In this document: piece after piece, positions 2,161 to 34,504 of the stretch
Layout: each line of letters begins with the position of its first letter
Position numbering within the stretch: the first letter of the stretch is position 1
DNA from: Candidatus Reidiella endopervernicosa
GTDB taxonomy: Bacteria > Pseudomonadota > Gammaproteobacteria > GCF-013343005
Direction: 5' to 3'
Assembly (NCBI RefSeq): GCF_013343005.1
Contig: NZ_CP054491.1
Span: 2,586,501-2,650,500 of the forward strand
Length of the DNA: 64,000 nucleotides
Translations under genes and position numbers: made by a program
Notes under the pieces: generated by a model
Told to the model about the DNA's origin: nothing
Seen by the model: only the letters and a program-made list of their open reading frames with translations
The model's database searches: none

Positions 2161-2385
2161 TGGAAGTGTTGAATAACTGTAACGATATGATCCGATGTAC
2201 GCTCATCTGCAGCAGACGCCAGCGAAGGCAGCAGGGGCAGACATAGTCAATAGTGCACTCTGAAAAGACGACACAGAAGTACAGCTTAATTGAATAGAGT
2301 CAAAAGAGTGTCTGGATCAGTAGTAACAGGGAGGACACCAATAATACCGCTATCTTCCTTTTTTAAGTCCCACTTACTACGCCAG

Positions 2386-2640
2386 TTATGAAGCGCGTTC
2401 CCAACTATTTTCGTTCCGCACCACCTCATAACGAGCCCAGTTTGCGAACTCTTCATCGGAAACGACAAACGATTTTCGACGGTTCTCACCCACCAATATC
2501 TTGAATTGGACGCTACGCTCCTCATCGCCACTCACCTCGCAGAGTGATGAGTCGATTGCCAGCACCTGGCGCACCATCCAACGCTTGCCAAAATCACCGT
2601 TGCTGTAGAAAGCACCGATCTCTATCTCATCGATTTTCAT
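2386..2640 (-). CDS. Small conserved hypothetical protein, 84 aa
   Basis: Starts MKIDEIEIGAFYSNGDFGKR and ends RYEVVRNENSWERAS. The start at 2640 is chosen because the longer upstream frame (to 2823) overlaps the amrS gene and reads as its shadow. There is no signal peptide or membrane segment; the protein is rich in charged and aromatic residues, as a small beta-rich cytosolic protein would be. It lies 76 bp downstream of amrS on the same strand and may be cotranscribed. I cannot assign a function. Confidence 0.6.
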   Translation of the reverse strand: MKIDEIEIGAFYSNGDFGKRWMVRQVLAIDSSLCEVSGDEERSVQFKILVGENRRKSFVVSDEEFANWARYEVVRNENSWERAS

Positions 2641-2716
2641 AAAAACAATTCTATCGACTTGTCGATCTTTCCTGCACCCCCCATTGGTAATATCTCTTCC
2701 CTGTTTTTTCAGTGGC

Positions 2717-3826
2717 TTATGGGTGTAATTCCATATTGATCGGGAGTCGCTTTGCACCCCATTCACCGGGGTGTTTTTCAAACACACCAACGCAGGGGCT
2801 GTTGCAGTCACAACAGCGTCCATCGGCGGTCAGATTCCATTCAGTCAGTACATACCAGTCACGTCCGATCAGGCGCTTACCGCAACGGTGACAGTAGGTG
2901 CTACCACCTCGCTCATCGTGCACATTGCCGGTATAAACATGGTGCAGACCGGCACTCATCGCGATCTCACGTGCACGACTCAGCGTTACAGGTGGCGTGG
3001 GTGGGTGGTCCATCATTTTCCAGTCGGGATGAAAGGCACTGAAGTGCCACGGTGTATCAGCCCCGAGATTGTCGACCACCCAACGACTCATCGCCTCCAG
3101 TTCGCTCTCGGAGTCATTCTCGCCCGGAATCAACAGGGTAGTAATTTCAGTCCAGACATCGGTTTCATGTCGCAGATATTTAAGGGTCTCTAGAACAGGA
3201 TCGAGCTGGCCACCACACAGCTTCAGATAGAACTCATCACTGAACGCCTTCAGATCAACGTTAGCGGCATCCATATAACTAAAAAACTCACGTCGTGGTT
3301 CATCACAGATATAACCAGCGGTAACAGCGACCGACTTGATTCCCTGCGCTCTACACGCCCTGGCTATATCAATTGCATACTCCATAAAGATGACTGGATC
3401 GTTATAGGTGTAGGCGACACTGCGACACCCCATCTCTCTGGCAACCCGTGCAATTTTTTCCGGCGAGGCCTGATCCATCAATGTATCCATCTCGCGTGAT
3501 TTGCTCATATCCCAGTTCTGGCAGAATTTGCAGGCGAGATTACAACCAGCCGTACCGAACGAAAGAACGGGGGTTCCGGGAAGGAAGTGGTTAAGCGGCT
3601 TCTTCTCGATGGGATCGATACAGAAGCCGCTAGATCGCCCATAGCTGGTCAACACGATCTCATCAGACCTATTGGCCCTTACAAAACAGAGCCCACGTTG
3701 GCCATCACGTAGCTTGCAGTAACGCGGACAGAGATCACACTGCACCCGTCCATCCTCGAGTTTGTGCCAATACCGGGTCGGGAATGTTGGTGTCTCGGGC
3801 GTGATTGTTTCTGACCCCTTACTCAT
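2717..3826 (-). CDS. amrS: AmmeMemoRadiSam system radical SAM enzyme (AmrS)
   Basis: A 369-aa radical SAM protein. The [4Fe-4S]/SAM cluster motif is CNLACKFC, near residue 95. The N-terminus has a conserved cysteine-rich segment (CDLCPRYCKLRDGQRGLC) and the C-terminus a four-cysteine zinc-like segment (CHRCGK...CCDC). This layout is typical of the AmrS/PflA-related family. It is transcribed away from amrB and amrA, with which it forms the three-part AmmeMemoRadiSam set; the biochemical role of this set is not settled. Start at 3826 (MSKGSETITPETP). Confidence 0.9.
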   Translation of the reverse strand: MSKGSETITPETPTFPTRYWHKLEDGRVQCDLCPRYCKLRDGQRGLCFVRANRSDEIVLTSYGRSSGFCIDPIEKKPLNHFLPGTPVLSFGTAGCNLACKFCQNWDMSKSREMDTLMDQASPEKIARVAREMGCRSVAYTYNDPVIFMEYAIDIARACRAQGIKSVAVTAGYICDEPRREFFSYMDAANVDLKAFSDEFYLKLCGGQLDPVLETLKYLRHETDVWTEITTLLIPGENDSESELEAMSRWVVDNLGADTPWHFSAFHPDWKMMDHPPTPPVTLSRAREIAMSAGLHHVYTGNVHDERGGSTYCHRCGKRLIGRDWYVLTEWNLTADGRCCDCNSPCVGVFEKHPGEWGAKRLPINMELHP

Positions 3827-3960
3827 CGCTCATCCTCACTATCAATTCGCAACTTATCTGACCAGACTATAGTCGATATATCCTTACAGAATTACGGACT
3901 TGATATCGATCCACTCTCACACTATTGATAGTAGATAGATGTCCCACAAAGGGAGCCGGA

Positions 3961-4746
3961 ATGGCAACTGTTAGACAACCAGCCGTGGCAGGCATGTTCT
4001 ATCCAAGTGATCCAACAGAGCTTCGCACAATGGTCGATGGCTATCTGAGCGAGGCGGCAGAAGTAGCTCGCGTGCCCAAGGCGATCATCGCGCCACACGC
4101 TGGTTTTATCTACTCCGGCCCTATCGCCGCCTCGGCCTATACAGCAATCGCGGCGGCACGCCATCAGATCAAACGGGTGGTACTGCTAGGACCTGCACAT
4201 CGGGTTGGTTTTCACGGTCTGGCGGCTAGCCATGCCGACTTCTTTCGTACCCCTCTCGGCGATGTCAGCATTGATAAAGCGGCTCTGGAGAAGATCATTG
4301 AGCTACCGCAACTCCACTGGCTCGATGAGGCGCATACCCTTGAGCATAGCCTCGAGGTCCAGCTCCCCTTCCTACAGCGTCTGCTTGATGACTTCACTCT
4401 GATTCCGCTGGTTGTTGGCGACTGCGCAGCAACAGAGGTCGAACAGGTTCTGAAACTGCTCTGGGGTGGCGATGAGACGCTGATCGTGATCAGTTCAGAT
4501 TTGAGTCACTATCACGACTACCTCACCGCACAACAGATGGATCGCACCACCTCAAATGCCATAGAGCAGCTCGACGGCCGTGCCATTCACTATGAGAGCG
4601 CCTGTGGACGAAATGGTATTCTCGGCCTGCTAGCCGCTGTAGAAAAACATCAGATGACAATTAGAACCATCGATCTGCGAAATTCGGGTGACACCGCGGG
4701 TGCTCGTGACCAGGTGGTCGGATATGGAGCCTATCTCGTTGAGTAG
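3961..4746 (+). CDS. amrB: AmmeMemoRadiSam system protein B (MEMO family)
   Basis: A MEMO-family protein of 261 aa, structurally related to extradiol dioxygenases. Conserved signatures are AVAGMFYPSDP at the N-terminus, APHAGFIYSGPIAA (metal-site histidine) and SSDLSHYHDY. I chose the ATG at 3961 because GGGAG lies just upstream and MATVRQPAVAGMFYP is the usual family start; an in-frame ATG at 3925 adds 12 unlikely residues. Its 3' end overlaps amrA by 23 bases, so the two are translationally coupled. Confidence 0.9.
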   Translation: MATVRQPAVAGMFYPSDPTELRTMVDGYLSEAAEVARVPKAIIAPHAGFIYSGPIAASAYTAIAAARHQIKRVVLLGPAHRVGFHGLAASHADFFRTPLGDVSIDKAALEKIIELPQLHWLDEAHTLEHSLEVQLPFLQRLLDDFTLIPLVVGDCAATEVEQVLKLLWGGDETLIVISSDLSHYHDYLTAQQMDRTTSNAIEQLDGRAIHYESACGRNGILGLLAAVEKHQMTIRTIDLRNSGDTAGARDQVVGYGAYLVE

Positions 4747-5308
4747 TGTCACATCACTGACAGGGCATGAGCAGGACGACCTGCGTCAGCTAGCACGCGA
4801 CTCTATCCGCCATGGGCTCACTCACGGTAAGGCACTTGATGTAAATGCGAGCGACTATAGCGACCCACTTCAACGGCAGCGTGCCACCTTTGTCACCCTG
4901 GAGCTCGGCGGCACACTGCGTGGCTGTATCGGAACCTTAGAGGCGCATCGCCCACTTGCCGTCGATGTCGCAAGCAACGCCTACGCGGCAGCCTTCTCCG
5001 ACCCACGCTTTCCACCCCTTGATGAAAATGAGTTTCAGCGACTCGATATTCATATCTCTATCCTCACTCCCTCGGAACCACTCCTTTTTAATGGTGAAGA
5101 GGATCTGCTGGAGAAGATCCGTCCCGGCATCGACGGCCTGATACTGAGTGAGGGTTACCGGCGTGGCACCTTTCTCCCCTCAGTCTGGGAGTCACTGCCG
5201 AATCCTGAGCAATTTCTGCAGCATCTCAAGCTCAAGGCAGGTCTTCCGGCCGACTACTGGTCAGATCAGATTGAGATCGAACGTTACACCACCGAGTTGA
5301 TTGAATAG
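4724..5308 (+). CDS. amrA: AmmeMemoRadiSam system protein A (AMMECR1 family)
   Basis: A 194-aa AMMECR1-domain protein. Signatures are FVTLELGGTLRGCIGTLEA, the HRPLAVDVASNAYAAAFSDPRF segment (named here by its ends HRPLA and DPRF), and GLILSEGYRRGTFLPSVWE. The start at 4724 (MEPISLSS) overlaps the end of amrB, typical of coupled genes; the upstream ATG at 4688 would deepen the overlap. The family function is unknown, and its linkage with a MEMO protein and a radical SAM enzyme suggests a shared redox or metal-dependent reaction. Confidence 0.88.
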   Translation: MEPISLSSVTSLTGHEQDDLRQLARDSIRHGLTHGKALDVNASDYSDPLQRQRATFVTLELGGTLRGCIGTLEAHRPLAVDVASNAYAAAFSDPRFPPLDENEFQRLDIHISILTPSEPLLFNGEEDLLEKIRPGIDGLILSEGYRRGTFLPSVWESLPNPEQFLQHLKLKAGLPADYWSDQIEIERYTTELIE

Positions 5309-5381
5309 CCACTCCCTCCTAAAGCAGCCCTATTCCTGACCGATAGAGTATGCTAGAGCCAATAGAGAGTCAGGGTCAGGC

Positions 5382-7000
5382 GTGGAAGTAAAACCGACAC
5401 AACCGCAGATCACTACCATCAAAGTCGATGTCGCTGAGCTTAAGGCGGCACTGAGCAATTGGAAGGTAGGCGAATCACTGCTCGCTGTTGCACGCGAGAG
5501 TTCTCAGCAGGGACGTGTGATGCTGCAGATTGGAAATCTTGCGGTCGAAGCAAAAAGCGATCAGCCGATCCGGGCGGGACAACAGCTCCAACTCGTTGTC
5601 GAAAGGCTCACCCCCTCCCCCGTGATGCGTGTTGTTGATAACATTCAGCCCCCATCACCACAGAGCATTGCGTTAAAAAACCTGCTGCCACTACAGCGTC
5701 CCATCTCAGAACTATTGGCCAATCTCACCCAGCTTACCCAGACCAAGGTTGTCACCCAGCTGTTAACTGCAGCTTCAACGGCCATCACTCCCAGCAAAGT
5801 GAATTCCAGTAGCACGCCCCTCCTCACACCAACCCTACCGGGACAGCCAGTCACAACATCAGCCACGACACCTCCGCCCGGCATCAGTCGCGATGAGGTA
5901 CGTGCCATCACACAACTTGCCCAGCGGTTGGTCAGTCAGATCAGCTCATCTAGTGATATCAGTAAACCAGGGGCGCTTGAGCAGGCAATAAAAACATCCG
6001 GGGAGTCGCTATTTTTGCGAAAGTTTGTTTTGGGCATCCAAGCCCAAGCAAACAGCAAAAACTTCACGCGACCGTTTATGCCTGCGGCGCCCCGACGTCC
6101 TGCGTACGTTGCGTAATCACCTCTTCGCGGCTCTACACAACTCCCTCAGTGACTCTACGCCGACATAAAGCCGCTGCTGCATCTTCTCCGTCGTTCGCTC
6201 GCGCTCTCAACTACGAATATACAGACGGCGTCGACTATCGGGGACTAACCGCCCTCACTTCGCTCTCCATGGCGGTCAGCGCGGGAAATTTCTTTGAGGC
6301 CAATCTTCTCAAGGGACTGCAGGGACTCAATCGCCCCACCCCAAACAGCGACTTCAAGGCACCACTGCTGCAACTACTCGATCTGTTACGTACCGTCAGC
6401 AGCAGCAAATCGTTGCCACCTAGCAGTGACAAACTCCCTCTCAGCAGTGAACTGACTCTTCCCGGTAGCGCCCCCCAGGCTCCCGCACGTTTTGCACCGT
6501 CACTCCCCCTTGGGGACACATTGAGAATGCTTGCAGATCTTCTCAAGCAGGTTGAGGGGAGCCTTGCTCGCATACAGCTCAACCAGCTTACCTCTACACC
6601 TCATCAGGCCACAGAGGCGGAAACACGCCCCGCATGGCTGATCGAGCTACCACTTCGCAACGGTGAGCGGATCGATCTGGTGCAAATGAAATTCGAGGAG
6701 GAGCGTGGGAAAAACAGTGATGGCAATGCTGAGAAACAGTGGTCCGTTAAGCTTGCGTTCGATCTCGACACTATTGGACCACTGCACATCAAGGTGACCT
6801 ACGCAGGCGGCTCCATCTCAACAATCTTCTGGGCCGAACAGCACGACAGCGCTGAACTCTTTAAGGCCAACATGGGTGAACTCGAACAGCGCCTTACCAA
6901 GGCTGGACTGGTTGTTAACAAACTCGATACTCACAGCGGTGCTCCCCCCTTTAAAAATGGCCTGCTTGCCGCCGAGTCGATACTGGATGAGAAGGCATGA
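5382..7000 (+). pseudogene. fliK: FliK-like hook-length control protein, split by the element
   Basis: Pieces 5382-5997 and 6282-7000 sum to 445 codons. The N-terminal half is Pro/Thr/Ser-rich. The C-terminal half has the Flg_hook fold (PAWLIELPLRNGERIDLV, GPLHIKVTYAGG, LEQRLTKAGL). Joining at the element gives IKTSGNFFEANLLKGLQG with no residue lost. It starts with GTG at 5382. Its stop overlaps the ATG of the next gene (ATGA at 6997). The pairing with an FlhB-C-terminal-like gene is common in gammaproteobacteria, where both act in flagellar type III export switching. As written, translation runs 37 codons into the element and stops. Confidence 0.85.
5998..6281 (+). repeat. 284-bp interspersed element, copy 3 (in fliK-like gene)
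   Basis: 284 bp, CCGGGGAGTCGC to GGTCAGCG, CACTTCGCTCTCC subfamily, with one base missing in CCCGAC(C)GTCC. Sense orientation. Removal gives AAA-ACA-TCG-GGA-AAT, in frame. Confidence 0.92.
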
Positions 7001-25344: not shown

Positions 25345-26091
25345 ATGCAAGCGGTAATGGCTGAAAAAAACACCCCTAAAAAGAGCGAAGCTCAATATCT
25401 CAAAGATCCTGCGCAGATACGTTCAATATTGAAACGTATTCAGGAGTCGCACGCCCTGCTCTCGCTCAGCCTGCCCAACAGTAAGGGCACCTATAGCAGC
25501 TCATTGATCAATGTCATACACGATGATGAGACAGATGTTGTTGAGCTTGATGAACTCACCCCATCAATCGGTCACGACCACTTCATCAAATCGAGAGAGG
25601 CACGTGTCTATGCCAAGTTGAATGGCGTCGATGTCCGTTTTTCCTGTCACCTTAAAGGCATTAAGCGTAGCGACGACGGTTACCTCTCCTACGTCATCGA
25701 CCTACCGAGACCGGTCGAGTATCACGAGCTGAGAAGTTATTTCCGTGTACCAATCAGCCTGGCCAGCAACATTCAGGTCACCATCGAATTGGAAGCTCAT
25801 CACGTCACTGCGCTCATTTCCGATATCTCTCAAGGTGGTTTTGGTGCGGTTATTACCGACTCAGTGGTCAACGTATCTATTGGTGACGTCTATCCCTGCA
25901 CCATTCAGCTTTCTAAAAAAGAGAAGATCGAGTGTTCAATTGAGATCAGAAACTCTCGTATCAATGACTTTACAGATAAACAACACATCGGTGCTCAGTT
26001 CCACAAGCTGACCCGTGCCCAGGAGTTACGCATCTCTAACCAAACCGCTCAGTTGCAGCGAGAGATGATTCGCAAAAACCTGTCGGTCTAA
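25345..26091 (+). CDS. YcgR-like flagellar brake protein with PilZ domain
   Basis: About 248 aa. The N-terminal YcgR domain is followed by PilZ. The c-di-GMP site is seen as RSYFR (RxxxR, about residue 134) and DISQGGFG (D-x-S-x-x-G). YcgR-type proteins slow the flagellar motor when c-di-GMP is high. Location after flgMN supports this. Start could be 25345 or 25357; the frame opens at 25303. Confidence 0.85.
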   Translation: MQAVMAEKNTPKKSEAQYLKDPAQIRSILKRIQESHALLSLSLPNSKGTYSSSLINVIHDDETDVVELDELTPSIGHDHFIKSREARVYAKLNGVDVRFSCHLKGIKRSDDGYLSYVIDLPRPVEYHELRSYFRVPISLASNIQVTIELEAHHVTALISDISQGGFGAVITDSVVNVSIGDVYPCTIQLSKKEKIECSIEIRNSRINDFTDKQHIGAQFHKLTRAQELRISNQTAQLQREMIRKNLSV

Positions 26092-26741
26092 TCCAAGCGG
26101 CGCATTCGCCTCACATCACGCCAGTAATCCACATCCCAGAGTGGCTTAAGCTCCTTCCACTCCATACCAGAGGCACGCATCAATCGGCGTGTCTGCTGCA
26201 TCACCCGACCACTCCCCCACTCCACTGCAGAAAAAGGGAGTGAGGCGCCGCGACGCAGACCAACCAACACATAGCCGCCATCTTCAGCAGGACCAAAGAC
26301 AGCGTCAGCTCCCTGCTCCAATACATCGAAGGCCTGCTGCAGATAGGAGGCATCAATCGACGGACAGTCGGTGCCGATCAACAGTGCATAGGGGGCATCG
26401 CTTAACATCACCCTAAAAGCAGATGCCATTCGCTCTCCTAGATCCAATCCATGCTGCACACACAGCTCAAATGAGTAGTATTGCTGTAGTCGTTGTGTAA
26501 AGGGGTGCCAACGATTCGGGGCAACCCAAAGCGTCACGGGGGCGAGGTCAGATTGTGAAACGGTTGCAACAGTCTGCACCACTAACTTTCGATGAATACG
26601 TGCTGCACCGATGGCCCCAGTAGCAGGTATCAGTCTGGTTTTAACACGCCCCGCCAGTGGCTGTTTCGCAAAGACGGCGATTCGACCCTTAGCAAATTTC
26701 ACCCTACCGATACCAGCTTGAGAGCCGCTGTGGATCGACAC
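26088..26741 (-). CDS. TIGR04282-type glycosyltransferase (DUF2064)
   Basis: 217 aa. Motifs are IAVFAKQPLAGRVKTRL, LLIGTDCPSIDASYLQQA and DAVFGPAEDGGYVLVGL, which define the family often called rSAM/selenodomain-associated transferase 1, a GT-A nucleotidyl/glycosyltransferase fold. It overlaps the upstream TIGR04283 gene by 38 bases and converges with the PilZ gene, their ends overlapping by 4 bases. Substrate unknown. Confidence 0.85.
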   Translation of the reverse strand: MSIHSGSQAGIGRVKFAKGRIAVFAKQPLAGRVKTRLIPATGAIGAARIHRKLVVQTVATVSQSDLAPVTLWVAPNRWHPFTQRLQQYYSFELCVQHGLDLGERMASAFRVMLSDAPYALLIGTDCPSIDASYLQQAFDVLEQGADAVFGPAEDGGYVLVGLRRGASLPFSAVEWGSGRVMQQTRRLMRASGMEWKELKPLWDVDYWRDVRRMRRLD

Positions 26742-27381
26742 CGATGAGATAGCAGAGACGCAGCCACCACATCAACAGGATGGTTCTCACCACACCACGC
26801 TGCAACCAGCGTCGCCCAGAGGTAACGACACGCTCGTGTAGAGCTATAGGCCTAGCCACCTGTCGCAGCCGTTTGCTCAACGCCACATCCTCCATCAATG
26901 CAATCGAAGGATAGCCACCAACACGCCAGAAGAGCCTGGTGGTCACAAAGATCGCCTGATCCCCCGTTGCCACTCCAGTCTGTTGTGAACGCAGATTCAT
27001 CATCTTCTCAACCACACCGATCAGCGCTGTTTTAGGTTCGATAGAGACATCAAAACGTCCCCAGACCTCGGGCGAGGACTGCTGATTGATAGCCTGATGA
27101 AGCAGTACCAGTGCCGTTGCGGGCAACACCGTATCGGCATGGATAAACCAGAGTATATCTCCCCTTGCAACGTCCGCCCCCGCATTCATCTGGAGCGCAC
27201 GACCCGATCTGGTGACTACCACCCTATCTGCTAGCTCATGTGCAAGCGCAACAGATTCATCACTGCTGCCACCATCGACAACAATCAGCTCAACCATCTC
27301 ATCGCGCTGGTCATTAAGTTGCAATAACAGGGAGTGAAGCGCTATGGCATCGTTCAGCACAGGGATCACTACTGAGATCAT
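26704..27381 (-). CDS. TIGR04283-type family 2 glycosyltransferase
   Basis: 225 aa. GT2 fold: ISVVIPVLNDAIALHSLLLQ, ELIVVDGGSSDES, ADTVLPATALVLLHQAIN and QAIFVTTRLFWRVGGYPSIA. A hydrophobic C-terminal stretch (TILLMWWLRLCYLIGV) suggests membrane association. It usually accompanies the TIGR04282 transferase, as here. The start overlaps the ATP-grasp stop by four bases. Confidence 0.86.
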   Translation of the reverse strand: MISVVIPVLNDAIALHSLLLQLNDQRDEMVELIVVDGGSSDESVALAHELADRVVVTRSGRALQMNAGADVARGDILWFIHADTVLPATALVLLHQAINQQSSPEVWGRFDVSIEPKTALIGVVEKMMNLRSQQTGVATGDQAIFVTTRLFWRVGGYPSIALMEDVALSKRLRQVARPIALHERVVTSGRRWLQRGVVRTILLMWWLRLCYLIGVDPQRLSSWYR

Positions 27382-28349
27382 GGACGCCTCAGATATCGTT
27401 TTTTGAACAGGTTTTTATAGGGCCGATAGGGACATAATAGTTTAGAGTCCAAGCTGATTTTATCTTTGTGTTGTCCCATTACATCAATCTCTGCGAAGGC
27501 ATCCAGAAGACTCTTCTCTCCTATTGCGAGTGCCTCTCGGCGTAGTGGGGAACGGTGTTTCACACCGACCTTGATGTGGGGATTGGTGTTAATCTCATAG
27601 ACCTGCATTCGTCCACCAACCAGACCATAGTCAGCCCTGCCATACTCAATACCCGCCTGCTGAAAGATCTTCATCAACTGCTCCGCATGTGGATTCTCGC
27701 GTACGTAGGCAATCTCATCACGAAAATCATCATCACTGGCAAGTCCAATCTTGCCGTACTTAACGTTCCAGTTATCTTCAATCACAAAGTGGTGAGCGAC
27801 GATCCGATCACCCACTCTGAATGCACCATATTTTCGATAAACCGACGGTGATGTCTCCTCGGCACAAAATTCAACCACCAGTAGACCTCGCAAGGGGTAA
27901 CCTGTCTCTCTAAGTTGCGTCAGAGAATTTTCAAGATCAGCCTGGGTGAGCAGCAGATCTGAGAGCGGCTTGCCGTGGTCGCCCTCCCACCTTACAAACA
28001 CCGGAAACCGGCGAGGAGCAGGATACTCATCGGCACGATAGACGTCGAAATCATTGACTCCTAGACGGTGCAAACCTTTTAACAGTTCAACGCGACTTTG
28101 CGCCCTTGCGGGATTGTTTAGCGGTCGACAACCCTCGGCCTTATTCAAGGAGTGGTAAACCTCACTCGCAATACGTAACTCCCACGGCATCAGACGTTCC
28201 AGGTCAGAAAAGATATAGCTACCAGCAGTAAGCGATCGCTTGGCAAAAAGTTCATCGTAACTGGATGTTTTCAGATCAAAACCACCATCAGCCTCACTCA
28301 ATGCCTCAACTGAATAGTCGTGTCCCGTTGCTGTGATGAAATTGATCAT
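27378..28349 (-). CDS. ATP-grasp-like protein
   Basis: 323 aa. The C-terminal half has ATP-grasp features: FPVFVRWEGDHGKPL (P-loop-like), LLVVEFCAEE, ADYGLVGGRMQVYEINTNPH (metal-binding E-x-N-x-N). ATP-grasp enzymes ligate amines to carboxylates. It heads an operon with the two transferases and diverges from the small peptide gene 131 bp away. The substrate cannot be read from sequence; peptide ligation is one option given the neighbours. Confidence 0.7.
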   Translation of the reverse strand: MINFITATGHDYSVEALSEADGGFDLKTSSYDELFAKRSLTAGSYIFSDLERLMPWELRIASEVYHSLNKAEGCRPLNNPARAQSRVELLKGLHRLGVNDFDVYRADEYPAPRRFPVFVRWEGDHGKPLSDLLLTQADLENSLTQLRETGYPLRGLLVVEFCAEETSPSVYRKYGAFRVGDRIVAHHFVIEDNWNVKYGKIGLASDDDFRDEIAYVRENPHAEQLMKIFQQAGIEYGRADYGLVGGRMQVYEINTNPHIKVGVKHRSPLRREALAIGEKSLLDAFAEIDVMGQHKDKISLDSKLLCPYRPYKNLFKKRYLRRP

Positions 28350-28480
28350 CGCTCCATTTATCCCCTCTCTCCTGCAAATACCCTGTATAAATCATTGATA
28401 ATACTAGAGCTCTACTTTGACAGCAGAGGCTGATCATAGCTAATCTTCACGGGGTATCTTAATCAAATAAAGGAATAGAC

Positions 28481-28684
28481 ATGAACGATTCAAATAATAA
28501 GGAAGCAAAAGTCTCGATTGATCCCAGCAAACTCCTTGGCAGCCAATGGCTCGAAACCAGTTCAGACACTAGCGACGACGCAACAAACGGCGTCAAGGTC
28601 GGAACAGTCAAAACTAAGAACCTTAAAGTTCGTGGTGGCAAGATCGGTGGTGCAAAACCTGGCATAGATAAATTCACAGCCTGA
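28481..28684 (+). CDS. Candidate RiPP precursor peptide, 67 aa
   Basis: Reads MNDSNNKEAKVSIDPSKLLG and later VKVGTVKTKNLKVRGGKIGG then AKPGIDKFTA. An acidic/polar leader-like half is followed by a lysine/glycine-rich core-like half containing GG motifs. AAAGGAA upstream is a good ribosome site. It lies just before an HEXXH-motif peptide-modification gene, with a hairpin between them, the usual arrangement of precursor and modifying enzyme. No homology is recognised; the role is inferred from size, composition and context. Confidence 0.6.
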   Translation: MNDSNNKEAKVSIDPSKLLGSQWLETSSDTSDDATNGVKVGTVKTKNLKVRGGKIGGAKPGIDKFTA

Positions 28685-28701
28685 TCTCAATCTAATTCTC
28701 T

Positions 28702-28729
28702 CCGCTCCCCATGCTTTTAAGGGGGGTGG
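28702..28729 (+). terminator. Hairpin between peptide gene and HEXXH gene
   Basis: A 9-bp stem, CCGCTCCCC with GGGGGGTGG (two G-U pairs), and a 10-base loop. No T-tract follows. It could partly terminate or process the transcript so that the peptide is made in excess over the enzyme. Confidence 0.45.
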
Positions 28730-28761
28730 TTGGATTGAACGGTAAAGCGTGAACTAAATCT

Positions 28762-29778
28762 ATGGTCACAGCCTTCAATAACAGCACACTTCCTATCGGT
28801 TTTCTCCCCGACCGCAGGCGTGCAGACGCACTTTACTGCGAGATGAAAGCACGGCTAATAGATAGCCTCAGCTATCTGCATCAACAGTTATCAGATACAA
28901 CCAGCCAGCCTCCCCCAATCGACAGTTGGTTAGCAACACTAAACAAAACCACCTTCATCAAGCCCGGCATTTTTGGCTACTACTACGATCTCGCTTCAGC
29001 GTTACTGCAAGATGATATCGAACTGGCCAAACAACTATTTACGAAGCTCTCCAGCTTCGAAGCAGCCGCAGGCGGTCTCTCAGTAATCACCCTCTCTGAG
29101 ACCGACCTCGATAGAGAGAGTATCGATCTCTATATTCGCAACGTTGAGATTGAACCAGACGTCCCCCTGCACCTGACTGCACCCTCCGCCTCATCTGCTG
29201 AGCGAGTCTCCCCCCATATCCACGAGGCCCTTGAGATCATCGATCAGGTTCTGCCAGAACTGGGCGAGGAGATCAGAGCACTGACAACCGAGATCGTGAT
29301 GGCCAGCAGTGCCAGGAATAGCGACGGCATCACCTTCCACGGTGCCTCCTCGGTCTACCTCTGGGGCACGCTCTTTATCAATGCCGACTACCACAAGACG
29401 CTGGTACAGGTACTCGACACACTGATCCACGAGTCGGCTCACTGCCTGCTGTTTGGACTCTCAGTCGAAGGTCCACTGGTCGAAAATCCTGAGGAGGAGC
29501 GGCACAGCTCACCACTGAGAGAGGATCTACGCCCCATCGATGGCATCTACCACGCCACCTTTGTGCTTTCGCGTATGCACTATGGAATGCAGAAAATTCT
29601 CGACTCGAGCCTACTTGATGATGAGAGTAACAAGGAGGTAGAGAGACTCATCGGACACCATGCCAGCTGCTTCAGAGATGGACTCAACACCATCGAGTCT
29701 GTCGGTAGACTCACCCAGCTCGGCAGCACCATCATGCAAGGCCCAAAACAGTACATGCAGAGTGTAGGTGCCATATAA
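28762..29778 (+). CDS. HEXXH-motif peptide modification protein (possible peptide hydroxylase)
   Basis: 338 aa. The metal motif HESAH is at residues 223-227 (LIHESAHCLLFGLS). It is followed by SPLREDLRPIDGIYHATFVL, a conserved block of the HEXXH motif domain family found in RiPP loci. Some members of that family are iron/2-oxoglutarate-dependent peptide beta-hydroxylases rather than proteases (established knowledge; not shown for this protein). No signal peptide. It sits 77 bases after the small peptide gene, which is its likely substrate. Confidence 0.75.
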   Translation: MVTAFNNSTLPIGFLPDRRRADALYCEMKARLIDSLSYLHQQLSDTTSQPPPIDSWLATLNKTTFIKPGIFGYYYDLASALLQDDIELAKQLFTKLSSFEAAAGGLSVITLSETDLDRESIDLYIRNVEIEPDVPLHLTAPSASSAERVSPHIHEALEIIDQVLPELGEEIRALTTEIVMASSARNSDGITFHGASSVYLWGTLFINADYHKTLVQVLDTLIHESAHCLLFGLSVEGPLVENPEEERHSSPLREDLRPIDGIYHATFVLSRMHYGMQKILDSSLLDDESNKEVERLIGHHASCFRDGLNTIESVGRLTQLGSTIMQGPKQYMQSVGAI

Positions 29779-29863: not shown

Positions 29864-29940
29864 GCGCCCGTGGCACAGCTGGATAGCGCAGCCCCCTCCT
29901 AAGGGGCAGGTCAGAGGTTCGAATCCTCTCGGGCGCGCCA
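29864..29940 (+). tRNA. tRNA-Arg (anticodon CCT)
   Basis: A 77-base cloverleaf including an encoded CCA. The acceptor stem is GCGCCCG/CGGGCGC, and the anticodon stem GCCCC/GGGGC encloses the loop CTCCTAA (anticodon CCT, reads AGG). The T-loop is GGTTCGAATCC. Its terminator is split by element copy 9. Confidence 0.97.
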
Positions 29941-30506: not shown

Positions 30507-33500
30507 ATGCCTATTATGTTTAATTTCATGCAGTTACATACAACTAGAACACTCCCTGATAATAGTAATGACGGGAGTTTGACGCCTATCAAGCAGAAGG
30601 TGAGCCCTTCGCTGCCTGAATTCTGTCGTCTGTTATCGCTCATGTTGCTGACACTCCTCATCATTCCAAACGCGAATGCTGAGGTAACAACACAACAGCG
30701 GCTTACGCTAGATATGCAGCTTGATGGTGAGCTGATCGCTACCGATGTCATCGGTTATCGACACCAGCAGAGTCTGCTATTACCGCTTGGGGTCGTGGTC
30801 GAAAAGCTCGGTTTTCCGATTGAACTCAACCCCGTTGCAGGTAGCGGACGAGGATGGACGATCAGCCGGGAGCGCGACTTTGAACTCGATATCAACAGTG
30901 CAGCAGTCACCATTGATGGCAGTCGCAGTGTGATACCTGCAAACAGCGTCTACTCTGCCAACAACGAAATCTATGTTGAGCTCTCACAGCTATCGAACTG
31001 GTTCCCGATCGACTTCTCTTTTAACCAGTCTCGCATGAGAGTTGAGCTTGAGGCCCTGGAGACACTACCCATACAGACGCGACACGAAGGGAAGCACCCA
31101 GTAACATTCAATCAGACTGCGGTTCATACGAGACAACATGCACTCCCCTATCCAGCCAGGAGCCTTCCAACAACCGATCTAAGCCTCGACTATCGAGTCA
31201 GACGTCACGGCACAGAGAACAAGCCAGACTTCAGCGGTGGTTATGCATTGATTACGAATAATGAACTCCCCTTTATCTCCAGTGAGTTCTATCTCCGAGG
31301 TGATGAGAGCGATCTATTGGACGGTGCGCGTCTTAGCGTTAGCCGCACCGATGCAAACAAGGGTCTGCTGGGCCCATTACGCGCATCACGCATCAAGGTT
31401 GGCGATCTAAATACCGTAGAGATTCCACTCTATGAGGGTGGCAATCAGGAGCTCGGCATCAAGTTTGAGAATAGTGATCTCGAGCATGAATATAGCTTCG
31501 ACACCACCGATTTTAGAGGCGACCTGCTACCAAACTGGGAAGTGGAGCTCTATCGCAACAATCTACTCATCGGCTATCTGATGACTCCCGAAAATGGGCG
31601 CTACGTCTTTAGCAACATTCCGCTCTACTACGGTAACAACGACTTCGAACTTATCTTCTACGGCCCTAACGGCCAGATCCGACGTATCAGCCGTAGTCAC
31701 TTTGTCGGCCCAGGCATGCTGCAGAAGGGTAAGGCGATCTATCAGTTCTCTCTCAGTGAACAGGGCGAGCAGCTGTTTGATCTACAGGAGGATGAGGTCG
31801 CCAGAAACCCTCGTCTTAGCGCAAAAATCGATTACGGCCTGAACGATAAATTCTCACTGGGCGCAGCTCTTCACAGTGTTGAGCTGGGTGATCGCCGCCA
31901 CCACTATCTCAACCTCGGCCTTCGCGGCGCCCTGCCCGGCATCTTTGCCAGCCTCGACACCACGCAGGACTCACGCGGGGGTGGTAGCTATCGCCTGCTT
32001 CTGCAGAAATCGTTACGGGGCATTAATCTACGTGCCAGCCTTGCCCTCTACGACGACTTCATTACTGAAGAGAGCTATACATCAAATAATCACCTAAAGT
32101 CGATCACCTCCATCTCAGCCAGCGGTCAGTTCGCCGGGATACCCATCGAATTCACCCTGCAAGATCGCGACTATGAAAATCATCGTGAGAGCATTTTGAG
32201 CAACACGCTCACCGCATATATCAACAGCGCCTATCTCAGCCACGACCTTAGATATATTCGCCTTGAATCAACCGCTGACGAATCGGAGATGGTTGAAGGT
32301 ACGCTGCAACTCAGCAAACATTTAGCCCCCCTCTTTCTACGTGGTCGTCTCGACTACTCAATCTACCCAGATGAGCGTATCGACTCGCTCTTTATTTCAG
32401 CCCTGTTGAATCTCGAAGATCGACTAAGCATGAATTTCGACTTTACCCATAACATCGATGGCGATGATCTCAACCACTACTCTGCGGGCATTAACTGGCG
32501 CAGCGATGCACTAATAGTCACCCCCTCTATCGCCTTTAGCAGTGACGGTGACTACACCGGCATGGTCTCTGCCAATCTGGCCCTCGGTTATCAGCCGATT
32601 CAGGATAGCGAGATAGACAGCCGTGAGCGGAATCACCACGGAACCATTACAGCAACGGTTTTCGAGGACAGCAATAACAACGGCACACTAGACAGCGGAG
32701 AACGCGGTGTTGCGGGCGTCTCGATTCGTGGCGCAGCGGGTGAACAGGTCTCTCGAAGCGATCGCAGCGGCCATCTCTATATGACCAACCTGCCGACCGA
32801 TACCCCAATCGATATCGAACTTGATATAGCAAGCATCAAGGATGCCTACCTGCTACCTCAACACGAATCACATACGATCACGTTAACCGCTGGAAAGCTG
32901 ACCAGGCTGGACTTCCCGCTCACACCGACGGGGGAGATCGATGGCACCCTCCTGTTGCAGCAGAGTGATGGCAATCGTTCTCCCCTGCCCAATGTTGTCG
33001 TCGAGCTATTCGACGCTAACAACCGCCTGGTTCAGCGTCAGCGCAGCGCCTTTGATGGTTTCTACCGTTTCTACATGCTGCCACTTGGAGAGTACAACGT
33101 TAAGCTCGTAGCAAACGATGCCATGCAGATTATTAAGCAACCGACAACACTGGCCATTACAGACAAGGGAACGACACTTAATAACAGTGACATCATCCTC
33201 GGAGCCAGCCACCCGAAAGCGACTCAAACTCAATCACCAGGCAAGGCTGCTGCAACAACAGAAAAACAGCCCAACCGCTACCGTCCCATCATCACGAGTA
33301 AGCAGGAAACAACCCCGATAACCGTGGCAAAACGTGAACCCCAGCCTCTCCAGGTTAAACGCACTGCAGGCAAAATATCACTGCAACTCGGTTCATTCAG
33401 TGCACAGGCCCAGGCAGAGCGCAGTTGGAAAGCCATTCAACAGCGTCACCCTACTCTTACCCAGGATCTTCACGCCTCCATCAACAGCGCGCTGATCAAC

Positions 33501-33899
33501 GGTTCACGTTACTACCGTATTACCACTAAAGAGCAGATGAGTCGTGCCAGTGCCGAGCAGTACTGCGCTCGTTTTAAGGCAGCAAAGCAGGCCTGCGTAC
33601 CTGCTCTCACAGCAGAAAAAGAACCATCTACAGTACGCAAACCCGATTTAGGAGGGTTCACCCTGCAGCTGGGTTCATACACCAGCCATGCCAGAGCTGA
33701 GTCGGGCTGGAGTAGCATCAGTGAGAAGGTAAAGGTCACGCTGAAAAACTACAGTCACCGTGTATTAGCTCATACCGAAGGTAGAGTTACCCTCTACCGA
33801 CTCACTTTAGCTCCGGGAGGCAGTGAGGCCTCAGCCCGTGATCTCTGCAACCGCGTCAAGGGGCTCGGCCAGCCGTGCCTGCCACTGGCGCTTAAATGA
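30507..33899 (+). CDS. Usher-like outer-membrane barrel protein with SPOR repeats
   Basis: About 1130 aa. A hydrophobic signal (LLSLMLLTLLIIPNANA) follows a long n-region; the frame opens at 30285, and I chose the ATG at 30507. Residues of about 60-250 are an N-terminal periplasmic domain. The middle has usher-like features (GRYVFSNIPLYYGNNDFELI, YGPNGQIRRISRSHFVGPG) and repeated beta-strands of a barrel. Next come two Ig/carboxypeptidase-regulatory-like folds (FEDSNNNGTLDSGERGVAGV; PLPNVVVELFDANNRLV). Two SPOR-like repeats close the protein (ISLQLGSFSAQAQAERSW; FTLQLGSYTSHARAESGW). Possibly secretes or anchors a surface polymer; function unknown. Confidence 0.65.
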   Translation: MPIMFNFMQLHTTRTLPDNSNDGSLTPIKQKVSPSLPEFCRLLSLMLLTLLIIPNANAEVTTQQRLTLDMQLDGELIATDVIGYRHQQSLLLPLGVVVEKLGFPIELNPVAGSGRGWTISRERDFELDINSAAVTIDGSRSVIPANSVYSANNEIYVELSQLSNWFPIDFSFNQSRMRVELEALETLPIQTRHEGKHPVTFNQTAVHTRQHALPYPARSLPTTDLSLDYRVRRHGTENKPDFSGGYALITNNELPFISSEFYLRGDESDLLDGARLSVSRTDANKGLLGPLRASRIKVGDLNTVEIPLYEGGNQELGIKFENSDLEHEYSFDTTDFRGDLLPNWEVELYRNNLLIGYLMTPENGRYVFSNIPLYYGNNDFELIFYGPNGQIRRISRSHFVGPGMLQKGKAIYQFSLSEQGEQLFDLQEDEVARNPRLSAKIDYGLNDKFSLGAALHSVELGDRRHHYLNLGLRGALPGIFASLDTTQDSRGGGSYRLLLQKSLRGINLRASLALYDDFITEESYTSNNHLKSITSISASGQFAGIPIEFTLQDRDYENHRESILSNTLTAYINSAYLSHDLRYIRLESTADESEMVEGTLQLSKHLAPLFLRGRLDYSIYPDERIDSLFISALLNLEDRLSMNFDFTHNIDGDDLNHYSAGINWRSDALIVTPSIAFSSDGDYTGMVSANLALGYQPIQDSEIDSRERNHHGTITATVFEDSNNNGTLDSGERGVAGVSIRGAAGEQVSRSDRSGHLYMTNLPTDTPIDIELDIASIKDAYLLPQHESHTITLTAGKLTRLDFPLTPTGEIDGTLLLQQSDGNRSPLPNVVVELFDANNRLVQRQRSAFDGFYRFYMLPLGEYNVKLVANDAMQIIKQPTTLAITDKGTTLNNSDIILGASHPKATQTQSPGKAAATTEKQPNRYRPIITSKQETTPITVAKREPQPLQVKRTAGKISLQLGSFSAQAQAERSWKAIQQRHPTLTQDLHASINSALINGSRYYRITTKEQMSRASAEQYCARFKAAKQACVPALTAEKEPSTVRKPDLGGFTLQLGSYTSHARAESGWSSISEKVKVTLKNYSHRVLAHTEGRVTLYRLTLAPGGSEASARDLCNRVKGLGQPCLPLALK

Positions 33900-33910
33900 G
33901 AGAGAAACCG

Positions 33911-34504
33911 ATGAAAAACTTCGCACTCATAATCACACTTCTCATCAGCTGCTTTCCTGTTACCGGCCCATTAGCCGCCGACGAGGGTATGGAAAGTCCT
34001 CAACAGGAACAGCACAGCAATACAGACAACGACAGTCGTGTTGGCGTCATCGCAGGGACGGCACTGGGTGGCGCAGCGACTGCCCATCCCGCTGGCCCGG
34101 TAATCGGTGGAGTTATTGGTTATCTGTTCGGTAAGAACAAAAACTTTATCGTCGATGCCTTTAACAAACTGCGTTCAGGCGTCACAGAGGAGAATGAGGA
34201 GGAGTCAGAGGTCAGCAAAACAGAACCTTCCATGCCTGAAACCGTTAAAACTGCATCCGCTACATCCGCTGAATCAGAGGCGGAGCCCACTCCCCCCACG
34301 CCTGTTGAGATGGTCAACAAACCACTACCTATCCCTATTGTCGCAGGTCCACCCCGCTGCTATGGCCATGCAACCAACATCACGACAAAGATGGAGATGG
34401 AGTTAGCTGCCCCCTCACTGCAAACGGAAAGCGGCGTGGTTAAAACATCGGTTAATCCCCGTCTTTCGCTGCGCGACCCTCGCTGTTTCTACTATATGGA
34501 CTAA
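33911..34504 (+). CDS. Exported glycine-zipper protein
   Basis: 197 aa. Signal peptide MKNFALIITLLISCFPVTG. Then a glycine-zipper-like segment (GVIAGTALGGAATAHPAGPV then IGGVIGYLFGK) that could insert into or span a membrane, followed by a Glu/Thr/Pro-rich linker and a C-terminal part with two cysteines (PRCYGHA, PRCFYYMD). It starts 12 bases after the usher-like gene, so the two likely form one operon and one envelope assembly. Family not recognised. Confidence 0.65.
   Translation: MKNFALIITLLISCFPVTGPLAADEGMESPQQEQHSNTDNDSRVGVIAGTALGGAATAHPAGPVIGGVIGYLFGKNKNFIVDAFNKLRSGVTEENEEESEVSKTEPSMPETVKTASATSAESEAEPTPPTPVEMVNKPLPIPIVAGPPRCYGHATNITTKMEMELAAPSLQTESGVVKTSVNPRLSLRDPRCFYYMD

Follow-up and report, generated by a model that had tools for sequence, protein, structure and literature searches.

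A recurrent cassette of a Lys/Gly-repeat peptide, an aKG-HExxH-type oxygenase and an ATP-grasp ligase in Candidatus Reidiella endopervernicosa

The window analysed here, a stretch of 64,000 nucleotides from contig NZ_CP054491.1 of Candidatus Reidiella endopervernicosa, carries genes for a predicted precursor peptide, an oxygenase assigned to the aKG-HExxH family and a putative ATP-grasp ligase, which sequence comparisons show to be linked and to co-occur. They probably constitute a stand-alone three-gene cassette of the RiPP type, in which leader-guided hydroxylation at K-x-G sites would be combined with the attachment of an external acid by the ATP-grasp enzyme. The oxygenase family is a known one, but its setting here is new, as is the precursor family, and either of two ATP-grasp types serves as partner; the combination is undescribed in the literature searched. 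No description of the trio of HEXXH enzyme, ATP-grasp and KLLG-leader peptide was found there (subscription papers lay outside its scope). The presence of the trio in four bacterial phyla suggests a family of ribosomal peptides with enzymatic modification that has so far not been described. Recognition of the HEXXH oxygenases as a family is recent, and there is as yet no way of predicting their reactions (PMC13060819). The cassette is compact, at three genes, and its short two-part precursor exists in about 60 natural variants, so that substrate rules can be tested on it directly.

The features of the locus, with positions in the window, are as follows.

26088–27381, minus strand: arsenosugar-type glycosyltransferase gene pair (TIGR04282, TIGR04283), abutting the ATP-grasp gene
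27378–28349, minus strand: RimK/Ddl-like ATP-grasp ligase, 323 aa, divergent from the peptide gene (AF2 fold, homologue profile)
28481–28684, plus strand: precursor peptide ORF, 67 aa, with an AAGGA-type ribosome site
28687–28738, plus strand: RNA hairpin between the peptide and enzyme genes (folding MFE and z against shuffles)
28762–29778, plus strand: aKG-HExxH-type peptide beta-hydroxylase ORF, 338 aa, Fe(II)/2-oxoglutarate oxygenase family (TIGR04267, PDB profile, AF2 fold)
29428–29442, plus strand: HESAH metal-binding motif, residues H223–H227 of the 338-aa enzyme (alignment of 48 homologues)
29509–29568, plus strand: SPLREDLRPIDGIYHATFVL block of the 338-aa enzyme (invariant residues in the alignment; counterpart in ChlH)
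29864–29940: tRNA-Arg(CCT), directly downstream of the cassette

The peptide, the HESAH enzyme, the hairpin, the divergent ATP-grasp gene and the two GT-like genes named in the preliminary description were all located. The hairpin has an MFE of -26.2 kcal/mol and a z of about -3.9 against shuffles; it has no T-run of the terminator kind and is therefore not a simple terminator. It may set the ratio of peptide to enzyme expression.

The precursor peptide and its family

The window precursor presents the leader V-S-I-D-P-S-K-L-L-G and a core with the K-x-G sites VKVG, GKIG and AKPG; it has some Asp/Glu and no Cys, ends in ...IDKFTA, and matched no NCBIfam or Pfam family above the cut-off, and neither did its relatives. 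In the precursor family, the core that comes after the leader LDxSKLLGFK[LI] consists of G-[AS]-K-[IVL]-G repeats, and a wider leader pattern upstream of the enzyme is LDxSK[LM][LFY]G[FY][KR][LI], then G-x-K-x-G repeats. The window peptide is atypical, with KLLGSQW and three K-x-G. A search of the 3.45-Mb genome with the precursor profile returned only two matches, directly upstream of the only two mod_HExxH genes of this genome: the window peptide (E 2.3e-14) and, ahead of the second gene, a precursor reading MVKDVILDSNKLLGFKIL...GAKIGKAP...GAKIGKAP...GAKIGKAPL.

Another 62 loci came from scanning 84,980 genomes, making 64 with the window and the second locus of the same genome; the enzyme homologues on these 62 other contigs are from Proteobacteria, Verrucomicrobia, Acidobacteria and Planctomycetes. 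The preliminary description had let its RiPP reading depend on conservation of the small peptide beside homologues of the enzyme. The peptide was found at 62 of the 64 loci, the other two being cut by the contig end, and the RiPP reading is supported by this conservation. The 62 comprise 56 loci with the standard leader (55 above the cut and L037, listed below it) and six with variant leaders or repeats spotted by eye (L006, L008, L048, L055, L061 and L063; the L048 peptides lie downstream of the enzyme). A pattern combining leader and core, searched without regard to position across 0.98 Mb of homologous loci, matched 40 times: 39 matches share the strand of the enzyme and precede it by no more than 1.3 kb, and one lies between the enzyme and the ATP-grasp. 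The cores contain 218 K-x-G, against 62 ± 7 in shuffled cores, and 243 G-x-K, against 63. What characterises a RiPP locus, namely a ribosomal precursor with a conserved leader and a variable core beside modifying enzymes, is seen here across genomes. The probability that the peptide is a chance small ORF beside an unrelated enzyme is close to nil: taken by itself, the window peptide is weak in features and belongs to no database family, as this explanation would have it, but its recurrence in essentially every complete locus, the clustering of the 39 matches and the mere two matches genome-wide refute it.

Several precursors are present at some loci (two at L020, two at L022, three at L048 and six at L058). 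A variant leader, approximately L-[LA]-x-P-Y-G-[AS]-x-[KR]-F instead of KLLGFK, occurs at L006, L048, L055, L061 and L063, mostly with a CphA-like ATP-grasp, and these loci form a separate sub-family. For dN/dS, the closest pair (L031/L040) offers four synonymous and five nonsynonymous codon changes, too few for use.

The HExxH oxygenase

The 338-aa protein had been described beforehand as a HEXXH peptide-modification enzyme, and the family model, the PDB profile and the predicted fold all uphold this. Its score against NCBIfam TIGR04267 (aKG-HExxH-type peptide beta-hydroxylase) is 85.5 bits, with a cut-off of 40. It carries H223-E-S-A-H227 and RPIDGIYHATFVL; in the alignment of 48 homologues the H, E and H of HExxH are invariant, as are S250, P251, R253, R257, P258 and D260–A265. 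Searched against the PDB, the profile of these homologues found convincing matches only in ChlH (8s5f, 1.5e-10) and an SjiH entry (22nu, 1.4e-8), which have HExxH and the RxDxRPxxG block in common with it; HESAH aligns to HEHRH of ChlH, and the SPLREDLRPIDGIYHATFVL block to SPWREDLRPPSGLLHAIFVF. The AF2 model (pLDDT 94) has ChlB-HExxH (8s5f) as its best Foldseek match (E 5.4e-12, TM 0.70) and also retrieves SjiH (22ob), and all five matches with E ≤ 0.001 are ChlB-HExxH chains or SjiH. Membership of the aKG-HExxH oxygenase family is thus well supported by homology and modelling, and the hydroxylase activity is a prediction only. On the hydroxylase tree the window enzyme groups with an Acidobacteria sequence (support 98/92), and the window copy is a diverged member of the cassette.

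The enzyme shares the family HMM, the HExxH, the SPxRxDxRPxxGxxH block and the predicted fold with ChlB-HExxH, BpmH/BipH, PflC/PosC and PesO (TIGR04267 / IPR026337). Those systems, however, use other leaders and have radical SAM, MNIO, MNIO-nitroreductase or Asn-synthetase-like partners (PMC12636437, PMC13060819), whereas the partners in the window clade are ATP-grasps and a KLLG-leader Lys/Gly peptide. The residues that HEXXH enzymes are known to hydroxylate in RiPPs include His, Asp, Phe, Gln and Pro (PMC13060819, PMC12636437), and no report of Lys as a target was found in the literature searched.

Hydroxylation is not certain, and cleavage is a live rival to it, since PflC/PosC cut the backbone oxidatively, forming an amide, and hydrolyse it when the leader is missing (PMC12636437). 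The HEXXH protein would then be a maturation cleaver, oxidative or hydrolytic, cutting at the repeats, with the ATP-grasp capping the new ends, and the lack of a linked protease here agrees with this. We consider it very unlikely, as beta-hydroxylation is the commonest activity of the family, PflC/PosC hydroxylate too, and nothing resembling the ARMD motif was found.

The ATP-grasp partners

The ATP-grasp gene had been taken simply as a divergent neighbour; its presence at 27378–28349 was confirmed, but it is more than a mere neighbour, for an ATP-grasp accompanies 59 of the 64 loci and is a true third component of the cassette. The nearest one is RimK/Ddl-like at 42 loci and CphA-like at 17, always within 2 kb except at L026 (5.5 kb). 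These counts come from an HMM search over six-frame translations of all loci, as long antisense ORFs otherwise hide ATP-grasp genes.

No Pfam or NCBIfam model matched the window ATP-grasp at E ≤ 1. The protein carries YGRADYGLVGGRMQVYEINTNP, and the catalytic D240, E252 and N254 and the EINTNP motif are conserved in its homologues, 23 of which gave a profile that reaches Ddl at 3e-4. In Foldseek, its AF2 model (pLDDT 91) matched RimK/Ddl/LysX/ArgX (E about 1e-9), and the top 50 fold matches are RimK, Ddl, LysX/ArgX and synapsin. RimK, LysX/ArgX and D-Ala-D-Ala ligase are therefore its nearest folds, with the catalytic D/E/N kept, but the likeness is distant (TM about 0.5, 11–17% identity, no Pfam family above the cut-off). 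RimK and LysX/ArgX ligate free amino acids to proteins.

The alternative ligase at 17 loci resembles the ATP-grasp half of cyanophycin synthetase (CphA), but with its length of about 620 aa it lacks the Mur-ligase half and reaches only about 250 bits to NF010623, far under the 877-bit cut-off. In the window genome it is found at the second locus only (L005 7620–7800; G000:C1 about 1565700), where it is split by a frameshift in the assembly, seen as two overlapping HMM matches in different frames; this copy may thus be broken, whereas the window cassette is intact.

The ligase type changes at least 4–6 times on the hydroxylase tree, at least 2–3 of these changes being forced by well-supported branches. 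This alternation implies that the ligase was swapped while peptide and oxygenase were kept. Cores with K-[IVL]-G-K occur only with the CphA-like type (6/17 versus 0/40; Fisher p = 3e-4, kinship ignored). The idea that K-x-G vanishes where the ATP-grasp is absent proved wrong, as L057 and L065 retain K-x-G and lose the G-x-K-x-G spacing. The precursors of L062 and L067, beside the RimK-like type, are without K-x-G, and together with K-x-G at L057 and L065 without an ATP-grasp this makes the link between motif and ligase a loose one.

An independent, unbiased set of 398 Pseudomonadota genomes shows the co-occurrence as well, clade-type HEXXH being defined as more than 300 bits to the 48-homologue profile. 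Such enzymes are present in G000, G069, G186, G256, G350 and G376; the precursor profile matched in G000, G069, G186, G350 and G376, besides an artefact in G105, a low-complexity repeat inside another protein. The RimK-type ATP-grasp occurs in G000, G186, G350, G376 and, as a distant form, G107; G069 has the CphA-like type, and a match in G007 was rejected as weak (41.8 bits). Within 3-kb loci, TIGR04267 proteins outside the clade were accompanied by neither ATP-grasp type and by no leader, except for the doubtful L089. The distant form of the window ATP-grasp in G107 (L100 4324–6683; 248 bits) diverges from a gene whose product resembles a cytochrome P450, at a locus without HEXXH or evident peptide; it is possibly another oxidase pairing.

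Viral contigs gave no cassette match, plasmids gave only distant HEXXH relatives (27–31% over 55–58% of the query), and no PADLOC defence model matched the peptide, the enzyme or either ATP-grasp type.

Proposed chemistry and genomic surroundings

Sequence establishes a conserved linkage, unbroken catalytic motifs and two-part precursors; for the working of the cassette we infer leader docking, K-x-G hydroxylation and ligation of an external acid. Both enzymes would dock on the shared leader. The oxygenase, with Fe(II), O2 and 2-oxoglutarate, would hydroxylate each repeat, most likely at the beta-carbon of Lys or of a neighbour in K-x-G; no other feature is shared by nearly all cores. The ATP-grasp would turn a free carboxylic acid, which is probably an amino acid, into an acyl-phosphate and join it to the repeats, the Lys epsilon-amine being the most likely acceptor. 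The product would be a poly-modified cationic peptide, which may stay in the cell or be trimmed by housekeeping proteases.

The closest characterised precedent is corallotide, where isopeptide formation at Lys repeats (KxxxD) precedes delta-hydroxylation by a 2OG oxygenase and the outcome is a 5-hydroxyisopeptide (PMC13097080). Repeated Lys motifs in the precursor, an ATP-grasp ligase and an Fe/2OG oxygenase are common to both systems, whose working is comparable. In corallotide, however, CorC is a PF13640 oxygenase, CorB is a TIGR04187 graspetide synthetase and the motif is KxxxD (PMC13097080), whereas the cassette of the window has a zincin-like HExxH-fold oxygenase, a RimK/Ddl- or CphA-like ligase, the K-x-G motif and, at some loci, acid-free precursors. 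On the corallotide model, the ATP-grasp would form Lys-Asp/Glu isopeptides (with core, leader or C-terminus) and the oxygenase would then hydroxylate the linked Lys; many cores do contain some Asp/Glu, and the leader Asp is nearly constant across the family. This graspetide-like course is unlikely. The precursors of L017 and L048 have no Asp or Glu anywhere in the peptide (L048 has two further precursors, not all acid-free), and in several others the leader Asp is the only acidic residue, although most loci have some Asp/Glu. The KxxxD spacing is absent, the enriched spacing being K-x-G, and no graspetide synthetase model picks up the ATP-grasp at E ≤ 1, the nearest folds of this protein being those of RimK, Ddl, LysX/ArgX and synapsin. 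Thus the synthetase-family ATP-grasp typical of graspetides is lacking, as are the acidic donors at L017 and L048, where side-chain graspetide links are excluded and a C-terminal carboxylate is possible. Acid-free precursors point to an ATP-grasp chemistry other than the usual side-chain cyclisation.

The substrate of LysX/ArgX, which are related to the ATP-grasp in fold, is a carrier protein, and the peptide might likewise be a carrier or scaffold, LysW- or PEARL-like, on which the ATP-grasp loads an amino acid and the oxygenase modifies the loaded group before a small molecule is released. The absence of a recurrent exporter or leader peptidase, expected for an intracellular peptide, is consistent with such a carrier. 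It is nevertheless decidedly unlikely, since many repeated sites, up to 9 K-x-G, suit poly-modification better than a single loading site, the family has no conserved C-terminus, and no product-releasing enzyme recurs downstream. A LysW-type carrier is small, Zn-binding and Cys-rich, with an acidic C-terminus; the window precursor does not correspond to this, and Cys amounts to 0.2% of core residues across the family.

Returning to K-x-G hydroxylation with external acid ligation, a new RiPP class is conceivable, although we do not yet lean towards it, in which an ATP-grasp would decorate many K-x-G Lys with an exogenous amino or other carboxylic acid alongside the HExxH oxygenase, two distinct ATP-grasp lineages, RimK/Ddl-like and CphA-like, having been recruited repeatedly for this one step.

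The 181 flanking genes contain, by Pfam, only scattered housekeeping and some polysaccharide genes. In agreement with the preliminary description, which saw no peptidase or transporter adjacent, none recurs among them, each such family matching at most 2 of the 181, so that the cassette is self-contained. The lack of both suggests that the predicted poly-modified cationic peptide has a role inside the cell; such a role would be out of the ordinary among RiPPs. The GT-like transferases, by contrast, had been counted in the candidate locus and fall outside the cassette: they are arsenosugar-type genes (TIGR04283/TIGR04282) that do not recur at other loci, the commonest GT2 family accounting for 5 of 102 flanking genes in one batch and not being among the top families in the other 79.

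Some loci depart from the common arrangement. In a Rickettsiales MAG (L064:6931–8004), the gene directly upstream of HEXXH encodes a KLLG-leader peptide, containing a single K-x-G, joined to an autotransporter beta-barrel domain (PF03797, E 8e-35); the contig has no ATP-grasp. At the Rhodobacterales-type loci L057 (8983–11505) and L065 (6444–7487), also without ATP-grasp, an AMP-binding/PP-binding/thioesterase or thioesterase-like protein adjoins HEXXH, and the cores have a different repeat (LGRLFSKRG; NGEP). Fusions of an AMP-binding adenylation domain and a cyanophycin-synthetase-like ATP-grasp, of about 1,100 aa, lie near the cassette at L063 (9772–13086) and L028 (11560–14760); L063 has an additional gene (2324–5563) with RimK-like and Mur-ligase domains.

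In the window, the tRNA-Arg(CCT) at 29864–29940 is a possible integration site. A large protein at 30600–34504 has an odd domain mix, with matches to copper amine oxidase N-like, SdrD_B and two SPOR domains, and is followed by a weak PdsO-like gene.
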